Shown one piece after another: positions 690 through 58,200 of a stretch of 64,000 nt of DNA. The notes under the pieces were generated by a model. It did not search any database. It saw nothing but the letters and a program-made list of their open reading frames with translations, and was not told where the DNA came from. This DNA comes from a virus, in IMG/VR virus record IMGVR_UViG_3300037042_003533, positions 1 through 64,000 of that record; one strand, 5' to 3'. The translations under genes were made by a program, and so were the position numbers. Numbering within the stretch: position 1 is the stretch's first letter; each line of letters opens with the position of its first letter.

Positions 690-1323
690 ACATGACTAGA
701 ACGGTCAGATTATATTTTGAGCATAGTTCGTAGGGTAAACGTAGGTTTGCGTTCTACGTTCTATATTTTTAGAACATCGCAGCCAGGGTTATTTTGGGCA
801 GTGTAGCAAGGCATAGATCAGACCATCATTATATAGGACTCTATTGGAGCATGTTACTGGCTGCGATCTATAGCCTTCTATATAGGTACATTCTAGGTTG
901 TTAGAATGTGCAATATAATAACCTAGTATAATTAGACAATAAAGATAGACAATAAAATCAGGGGATAATATAAACAAAGATTATTATAATAATAATTAAG
1001 ACATTATTTGTGTACTTTAATCGTAGACTATTTTAATCTAATTATATTAGTTCGTGTAGTCAAACATTGTGCCGGTATGGGCCCGCGCCTTATTTTATGA
1101 AAAATTTTGAAAAATTAGTAGGAATACCTTTTTCACCTGTCCCCCTCTCCAACCTCAAACTCCTATCCAAGTACACAAATTTAACACACTTTCCACCTCA
1201 TCCCTTTCCCTCCAACCCCCTCATAAAACTCCCTAAATCTCCCCAAATCTCCTCAATTCCACCGCCTTTCTCCTCAAAACACCCCCATTCTCATACTTGT
1301 ATAGGAGTTTCCCACCAAAACTT

Positions 1324-1362: not shown

Positions 1363-1405
1363 TTCTATACAGCCTACTTGATCAGGAGTTTGCTCTTGTT
1401 CCCCA

Positions 1406-1434
1406 TTGACATATCTCCTATTCCATGTCATACT
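1406..1434 (+). promoter_or_regulatory. Sigma70-type promoter of the left operon
   Basis: TTGACA at 1406-1411 and CATACT at 1429-1434 are separated by exactly 17 bp. The expected start site, about 1441, coincides with the first bases of the structured leader. Confidence 0.7.
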
Positions 1435-1440
1435 ATAACT

Positions 1441-1563
1441 AAGGAGAACTAACCAACACAGTAAGGCTGAGTACAGTTGAGAACTCAGTAAGCGGAGGTA
1501 GGGGAGTGTTAAGTGAGTTCTGGTCGCAACTCCCACTGTAAAGGTTTTGTTGGTTAGTTCTCT
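1441..1563 (+). ncRNA. Structured 5' leader RNA, three-way junction
   Basis: A perfect 15-bp closing helix forms between 1444-1458 and 1548-1562. Inside are a 6-bp hairpin (1467-1472/1483-1488, CTGAGT with ACTCAG) and a second 6-bp helix (1502-1507/1529-1534). ACAGT at 1473-1477, in the loop of the first hairpin, can pair with ACTGT at 1535-1539 as a pseudoknot. The RNA begins at the predicted start site of the 1406 promoter and ends about 10 nt before the ribosome-binding site AAAGGAG of the gene at 1591. The layout resembles a riboswitch, protein-binding leader or processed small RNA, but I do not recognise a known class. Confidence 0.6.
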
Positions 1564-1590
1564 CGTTTCTATTAAAGGAGAGGATAAATA

Positions 1591-1794
1591 ATGTCAAACG
1601 AAATGATCGAGATAACCTGTGGGACATGTGCAAATTGTAAATACATGAAGTTATCCACCTACATCGATGCAGGGAAAATAACATTGAAGTGTGTTGTGCA
1701 GCAACCATATCGTATCATCTACGATGGAAGCCGCACCCGGACGGCTATTATGATAGCTAGTGGAACGATTTGTGCTCTGCATGATTTTGGATAA
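1591..1794 (+). CDS. Small Cys-rich protein, probable zinc binder
   Basis: A 67-residue protein with CGTCANCK near residues 11-18 and further Cys at about 35 and 61, suggesting a metal-binding fold. The ribosome-binding site AAAGGAG lies 9 nt before the ATG. It is the first gene behind the structured leader. Its last eight codons (TICALHDFG) are written by the first copy of a 32-bp repeat that recurs 626 bp downstream, so the next gene appears inserted between this gene and its former neighbour. Function unknown. Confidence 0.7.
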   Translation: MSNEMIEITCGTCANCKYMKLSTYIDAGKITLKCVVQQPYRIIYDGSRTRTAIMIASGTICALHDFG

Positions 1795-5146: not shown

Positions 5147-5222
5147 AGAGAGTTAGTGTAACGGTAACATCCCATGAGTCGCGCGCGATAGTGGAAAGCA
5201 GGTTCAATTCCTGCACTCTCTT
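5147..5222 (+). tRNA. tRNA-like gene with an enlarged anticodon loop
   Basis: A perfect 7-bp acceptor stem (AGAGAGT 5147-5153 with ACTCTCT 5215-5221), a D-arm GTGT/ACAT with loop AACGGTA, and a perfect T-arm GCAGG-TTCAATT-CCTGC (5198-5214) show tRNA ancestry. The anticodon arm is abnormal: only CCAT (5172-5175) pairs with GTGG (5191-5194), leaving a 15-nt loop that contains the palindrome TCGCGCGCGA. I cannot assign an anticodon. It may be a degenerate tRNA, one with an inserted or spliced segment, or a decoy. No CCA is encoded. Confidence 0.6.
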
Positions 5223-5224
5223 TT

Positions 5225-5343
5225 AGAGGCAGAGAAACTATAAGTGAGATAGCCAATCAAGACCTTATGGTGTGTATAGTTCAATGGATAGAATGGCCCT
5301 GGCTGGGCTCAATACAAGTTCGAATCTTGTTGCACCTGCCTCT
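5225..5343 (+). other. Outer 8-bp stem around the second tRNA-like gene
   Basis: AGAGGCAG (5225-5232) is the exact reverse complement of CTGCCTCT (5336-5343), which is followed by TTT. The stem would enclose 103 nt including the tRNA-like element. It may act as a terminator or processing stem for the tRNA transcript, or it may be chance. Confidence 0.4.
5270..5338 (+). tRNA. tRNA-like gene, weak acceptor stem
   Basis: The D-arm (GTTC-AATGGATA-GAAT, 5279-5294) and T-arm (ACAAG-TTCGAAT-CTTGT, 5314-5330) are typical. The acceptor stem 5270-5276 with 5331-5337 has one mismatch and two wobbles. The anticodon arm can be drawn with a 7-nt loop reading CTGGCTG, which would put GGC as anticodon, but a 5-nt loop pairs better, and the G3:U70 identity pair of alanine tRNAs is absent. 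Function and charging are uncertain. Confidence 0.5.
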
Positions 5344-58139: not shown

Positions 58140-58187
58140 CCTTGTATGTTATAGATTTATTATCTATTTACAGTATAACATACAAGG
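58140..58187. promoter_or_regulatory. 14-bp inverted repeat spanning the integrase promoter (operator candidate)
   Basis: CCTTGTATGTTATA (58140-58153) and its exact reverse complement (58174-58187) are 34 bp apart centre to centre. The distal arm overlaps the -10 box and spacer; the proximal arm lies between the start site and the ribosome-binding site. Since transcription starts between the arms, the full palindrome exists only in DNA, which points to a protein-binding site such as an autorepressor, integrase or excisionase site. Confidence 0.75.
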
Positions 58188-58200
58188 GCCAGCTTGTCAA
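58172..58200 (-). promoter_or_regulatory. Consensus sigma70 promoter of the integrase
   Basis: On the minus strand TTGACA (58195-58200), 17 bp, TATACT (58172-58177). Start expected near 58165; AAGGAA precedes the ATG at 58131. The -35 box overlaps the stop of the upstream 55-residue gene. Confidence 0.85.

Follow-up and report, generated by a model that had tools for sequence, protein, structure and literature searches.

The left operon and its leader

The window, namely the whole stretch of DNA analysed, comprises bases 1-64,000 of a virus record of 83,699 bases in total (an 83.7-kb genome). The rest of the same phage record, beyond the window, is called L018 below. The record encodes a large terminase subunit, a DNA polymerase, a DnaB helicase, and a T4-like RNA ligase, together with a tyrosine-type integrase and many genes without a family. 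The phage is uncultured. The first gene of the left operon encodes a Cys-rich protein of 67 aa, and its neighbours are a methyltransferase and an RNA ligase. A 40-nt direct repeat (1759-1798 and 2385-2424; 93% identical) takes in the 3′ end of the 67-aa gene and that of the methyltransferase gene. The features at the head of this operon are as follows.

1157-1173 (minus strand), 1294-1310 (plus strand), and 1375-1391 (plus strand): three copies of TACTTGNNNAGGAGTTT, upstream of the 1406 promoter
1406-1434, plus strand: promoter, TTGACA, 17 nt, CATACT, TG-extended, then ATAACTA
1441-1443, plus strand: predicted transcription start (+1), placed 7-9 nt past the −10 hexamer
1443-1458, plus strand: 5′ arm of helix P1, from an inverted-repeat scan and base-by-base pairing
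1467-1488, plus strand: hairpin P2, 6 bp (1467-1472/1483-1488) with a 10-nt loop, not beyond chance
1494-1541, plus strand: possible leader peptide, speculative; GGAGG 1494-1498, GTG 1506, MLSEFWSQLPL-stop
1502-1534, plus strand: hairpin P3, 6 bp (1502-1507/1529-1534) with a 21-nt loop, not beyond chance
1535-1539, plus strand: possible pseudoknot strand ACUGU, pairing with the P2 loop, not beyond chance
1548-1563, plus strand: 3′ arm of helix P1, from the same scan and pairing
1557-1564, plus strand: anti-SD stretch GUUCUCUC, common to P1 and an alternative SD hairpin with 1578-1585
1575-1583, plus strand: Shine-Dalgarno (SD) sequence AAGGAGAGG of the first gene, from sequence
1591-1794, plus strand: first gene of the left operon, 67 aa, Cys-rich, no family

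Promoter and predicted transcription start

The 1406 promoter is an exact match to the phage consensus TTGACA-N14-TG-N-YATACT. This consensus occurs without mismatch four times in the window, at 1406, 5109, and 11430 on the plus strand and at 58172-58200 on the minus strand, and promoters with one or two mismatches are also present in L018. When the downstream sequences were aligned, it was found that ATAANTA lies directly downstream of three of the four (1406, 5109, and 11430). Transcripts from the 11430 promoter and from a 73.5-kb promoter would start within a few bases of an SD and a gene, while that from the 5109 promoter would start at a tRNA-like gene with an ordinary gene after it, and that from the 1406 promoter at the P1 helix. 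Because of this promoter set and these start contexts, a transcript start of the left operon at about 1441-1443 is credible, as judged from the sequence. This +1 coincides with the start of the helix, in agreement with the original prediction that the RNA begins exactly where the 1406 promoter would start it.

The DNA directly upstream of the 1406 promoter (1084-1345) is the lowest-G stretch of the genome, with 5.7% G and 37% C on the plus strand. TACTTGNNNAGGAGTTT, one of whose three copies is inverted, has exact copies nowhere else in the genome, and these copies are probably sites for a regulator or a replication protein. The minus-strand promoter lies ahead of the integrase gene and has a 14-bp inverted repeat (58140-58187) over its −10 region, which is operator-like. 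The tRNA-like sequence at 5147-5222 begins about 3 nt past the predicted +1 of the 5109 promoter; it scores 39 bits in Rfam and has an odd anticodon arm, and ARAGORN makes no call there. A tRNA-Ala(GGC) comes next, at 5270, and there are two Rfam tRNA matches in the window.

The closing helix

P1 is a perfect 15-bp inverted repeat (1444-1458/1548-1562), extended to 16 pairs by G1443-U1563. The 15-bp helix had been predicted originally, and a base-by-base check confirmed every pair of it; all 16 pairs are standard, and 15 are Watson-Crick. Among the perfect inverted repeats within 250 nt, P1 ranks third longest in the genome, and it lies beyond all 3000 dinucleotide shuffles of the leader, in which the longest repeat was 12 bp. 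The leader (1441-1563) has an MFE of −45.5 kcal/mol (z −4.3), a significant fold for the leader taken whole. Since the minus strand folds equally well (MFE −40.2, z −4.75), strand-specific support comes only from the promoter, the SD, and the gene.

With the predicted +1 at 1441-1443, there are 0-2 unpaired nucleotides ahead of P1, which places the helix within the distance of about 2-4 nt from the 5′ end that defines a 5′-terminal stabilising stem. At the other end, the last paired base is U1563 and the SD AAGGAG (1575-1580) follows shortly after; the structure does end just before the ribosome-binding site of the gene at 1591, as had been claimed. P1 is a genuine, non-random helix at the 5′ end of a bona fide leader of an operon. 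The earlier assignment of a leader RNA to the start of the left operon is well supported by the consensus promoter, by where the helix lies, and by the SD and gene that follow.

Is such a helix common behind this type of promoter? Among 70 other phage contigs with IMG/VR stretches carrying the same strict promoter, only one, L095, has a perfect 5′-terminal helix of at least 13 bp (13 bp). In L095 (13001-13137, minus strand), a 20-bp helix stands at the transcript start, behind the same promoter and ahead of a TnpB-like gene, which I take to be an IS200/IS605 TnpB from the way it reads. On account of this downstream gene, L095 was treated as unrelated to the leader. Another contig, L090, was rejected as a comparable case; it has a plain hairpin with a tRNA cluster behind it.

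The insert between the arms

The 89-nt insert between the P1 arms, taken alone, folds no better than shuffles (z −0.93), and when the arms were kept and the insert was shuffled, 148 of 500 sequences folded at least as well. All pairs of P2 and P3, the two inner 6-bp helices of the original prediction, check out, but they do not stand above these shuffles. Likewise, ACAGU in the P2 loop (1473-1477) can pair with ACUGU (1535-1539) as the proposed pseudoknot, but in a simplified test on MFE loops shuffles routinely gave 4-5 bp, and a 5-bp pseudoknot is not distinctive. A second ACAGU copy occurs at 1458-1462. The inner hairpins and the pseudoknot were set aside as evidence for leader structure, as shuffles do as well, and the insert may be mostly spacer. 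The labels 'riboswitch-like' and 'protein-binding' had rested on the inner fold and the pseudoknot and lose their footing with them.

Two predicted folds around the Shine-Dalgarno sequence

The transcript would start with AAGGAGA (1441-1447), the same 7-mer as in the SD (1575-1581). The anti-SD stretch GUUCUCUC (1557-1564) is complementary to GAGAGGAU (1578-1585), with which it can form a local hairpin of −10.9 kcal/mol, and two mutually exclusive folds are predicted around the SD. In ensemble predictions, P1 has a probability of 0.997 in the intact leader; upon removal of the first 6 nt, the predicted ensemble flips and the SD hairpin reaches 0.97. The simple ON state is not clear-cut, because the SD is still only about 18-28% unpaired in the model when P1 is formed. 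The anti-SD stretch itself is not exceptional: 21% of shuffled P1 3′ arms pair with the SD as well as the real one, and the SD accessibility of the gene at 1591 is the ninth lowest among 95 SD-preceded ORFs.

A free small RNA would have its own intrinsic terminator at the 3′ end. A scan for hairpins with loops of 3-8 nt found no terminator-like site on the plus strand from 1441 to about 5198, and the suggestion of a 'processed small RNA' finds no support in the sequence.

Search for relatives

No close relative of the phage was found in phage records or in IMG/VR, which was queried via the 67-aa protein, the terminase, and the DNA polymerase, in collections that may leave out very near records. 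The terminase gave only short partial matches in GTDB genomes, namely in Salinimicrobium, and these are not relatives of the phage. The leader has no homologue in the phage, plasmid, or IMG/VR searches: against phage and plasmid records, its DNA gave only short matches with marginal E-values, at the SD or in the gene. Exact 16-18-mer patterns from the leader RNA were also searched; the matches to a 16-mer fold without the P1 helix, the inner 18-mer has zero matches, and the other five matches fail the covariance model. Across the phage genome, this model finds only the leader itself, a single-copy element, and its own reverse complement, and it finds nothing in 81 other loci (the 70 promoter-bearing IMG/VR stretches and 11 more). 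The leader matches no Rfam family at the gathering threshold or at E up to 10. The remark that its class is not recognised holds to the extent that nothing known matches it.

Other structured elements of the genome

In a whole-genome screen, about a dozen elements at 77-83 kb proved to be stronger structures than the leader. On the minus strand at 77.2-82.0 kb (L018:13196-17970), a structured element of about 125-130 nt recurs between small genes and includes a 20-bp hairpin (TCTGCCAATTGGGGTATACC...). The covariance model R1 recognises seven main copies and one diverged copy. Compensatory changes between copies occur at five pairs, which 0 of 500 shuffles reach. The element has no blastn match in phage records and no true match in IMG/VR. 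These elements are the strongest structures in the genome, and the covarying element is more striking than the 1441 leader. The leader was rejected as a member of this family, since R1 has no match at 1441. At 77.5 kb (L018:13540-13728), a 17-bp perfect inverted repeat, TCTCATAAGAAGGGCAA, longer than P1 and with copies 155 nt apart, flanks a small gene region.

A second leader is located at 69.9 kb (L018 5910-6109), where a two-mismatch promoter of the set is followed by a 200-nt strongly folded leader (z −4.1; MFE about −71 kcal/mol for L018:5910-6116). The bases at its 5′ end, GUUCAUUUG, can form 9 perfect base pairs with the region around the start codon of a 284-aa gene, whose AUG is 93-99% paired in the prediction. 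When 25-nt and 40-nt stretches were drawn at random from the genome, 9 bp was reached in 0.3% of trials. A long hairpin also occurs in this leader, and CUGCAAGG and CCUUGCAG may form a pseudoknot. In the models, two operons of the phage would thus pair the 5′ end of the transcript with the start region of the first gene, by different sequences and with opposite predicted effects.

Interpretation

At a rough probability of 0.4, the leader in the 5′ UTR of the left operon is a 16-bp 5′-terminal clamp that would make the mRNA long-lived and keep the SD open. The 16-bp helix would join the first nucleotides of the transcript to the stretch just upstream of the SD of the first gene. As no more than two 5′ nucleotides would be left unpaired, the transcript may be a poor substrate for 5′-end-dependent decay by RppH/RNase E or RNase J, and the operon mRNA may therefore be long-lived. 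P1 would also occupy 1557-1563, which otherwise could pair with the SD, and an intact 5′ end would thus keep the first gene translatable, while the loss of the first 6 nt or so, or the capture of the 5′ arm by another factor, would close the SD. Computation gives the helix, its match to the +1 position, and the prediction that it outcompetes the SD hairpin; from these I infer the effects on decay and translation. The 5′-terminal clamp appears to be the best-supported step of the mechanism, while the occupation of the anti-SD stretch is a more conjectural one.

This clamp is supported by a P1 beyond the shuffles, the placement of the +1, the rarity of such helices (1/70), the 0.997 and 0.97 ensembles, the lack of a terminator, and the second leader. 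It is weakened by the lack of a homologue and of covariation, the unexceptional anti-SD stretch, the partly paired SD, and the presence of the helix also at the DNA level, as well as by the 69.9-kb leader, which is built differently and is predicted to act in the opposite sense, closing the start codon. As a long shot, the 5′ end may mimic the SD (AAGGAGA at +1) as a decoy occupying the anti-SD strand, so that translation would report 5′-end integrity, and the 69.9-kb leader would be the inverse device.

It is unlikely that the leader is a switch responsive to a protein or a ligand, in which a factor binds the insert, frees the 5′ arm from P1, and lets 1557-1564 close the SD, resulting in autoregulation or a riboswitch. 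The two mutually exclusive folds that share 1557-1563 and the alternative pairings within the insert would fit such a switch; however, the insert is no more structured than shuffles, Rfam offers no match, neither the first gene nor its neighbours suggest a ligand, and there are no relatives showing a conserved pocket. Still less likely is an RNase III-type processing stalk, which would cut the transcript into a structured 5′ RNA, perhaps a small RNA acting in trans, and a monophosphorylated mRNA of the operon. In its favour are the uninterrupted 16-bp helix around about 90 nt and the 5109 transcript, which would likewise start right at a tRNA-like RNA with an ordinary gene behind it, but for full double cleavage by RNase III the helix is short, the insert has no significant structure, and neither a terminator nor a second family member was found.

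A lack of any RNA function, the inverted repeat being either a remnant of a small inserted element acting at the DNA level or a chance palindrome, is improbable. The equal folding of the minus strand and the single copy in the genome agree with it, while the ends show no target-site duplication, and a random repeat would be unlikely to coincide exactly with the +1 of a consensus promoter and to leave the SD and ATG just outside. I consider it very improbable that the leader is a put-like RNA that binds RNA polymerase and confers termination resistance through the left operon: it occupies the position of HK022 putL, directly downstream of an early promoter (PMC9378689), but consists of one long-range helix around an unremarkable insert and has no second similar copy. 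Least probable is that translation of a short peptide (GTG 1506, 11 codons) opens P3 and P1 for translation-coupled control, for although GGAGG (1494-1498) sits 7 nt before the GTG, an SD-start pair of this kind occurs in 5% of shuffles, the start is a GTG, and no relatives show conservation.

The leader probably acts locally, to protect the mRNA or to control its translation, and it is not a proven new riboswitch. It is a well-placed candidate from a single genome with a putative function, and it does not establish a new RNA class. If the clamp works, translation of this phage operon would depend on an intact 5′ end, and mRNA decay or host attack on the 5′ end would be compactly coupled to phage gene expression.

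Comparison with known systems

Translational riboswitches use sequestor/anti-sequestor pairing around the SD. Pairing of this type is predicted for the leader, but unlike them it has no conserved aptamer, ligand, or covariation, and no known class was found at E up to 10 in Rfam, with an insert not above shuffles and no relatives. By position only, HK022 put is the nearest analogue, as putL is a structured RNA with which an early phage transcript begins, directly downstream of the promoter (PMC9378689). The put RNAs are about 70 nt with two stem-loops, and putL and putR are similar in sequence (PMC9378689), whereas the leader is a single copy with another architecture.

In the T4 leaders of gene e, soc, 49, and I-TevI, burial of the SD or the start codon depends on whether a 5′ arm is present (PMC3014915). 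The gene e leader is the nearest phage analogue, in that a 5′ arm sets SD burial. The predicted sign is opposite, since the 5′ strand closes the SD in T4 e, whereas the 5′ arm of the leader would keep the anti-SD stretch off the SD. Unlike the T4 leaders, the 1441 leader has no known internal late promoter.

The 5′-terminal stem-loops of bacterial mRNAs were reportedly treated by Emory, Bouvet and Belasco in 1992, and papA is said to be another example of a stabilising stem. The stabilisation of mRNA by 5′-terminal pairing is established (reviewed in PMC3997798). RppH and RNase E depend on single-stranded 5′ ends, which accounts for the long-known stabilising effect of 5′ secondary structure, and the minimum for Bacillus RppH is two unpaired nucleotides, with a preference for at least three (PMC3997798). 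Unlike these stems, the leader has a long-range helix with arms 89 nt apart, and its 3′ arm lies near the SD and is complementary to it. Like them, it would leave no more than two nucleotides unpaired ahead of a stable helix, and a block to RppH and 5′-sensing RNases would be expected.
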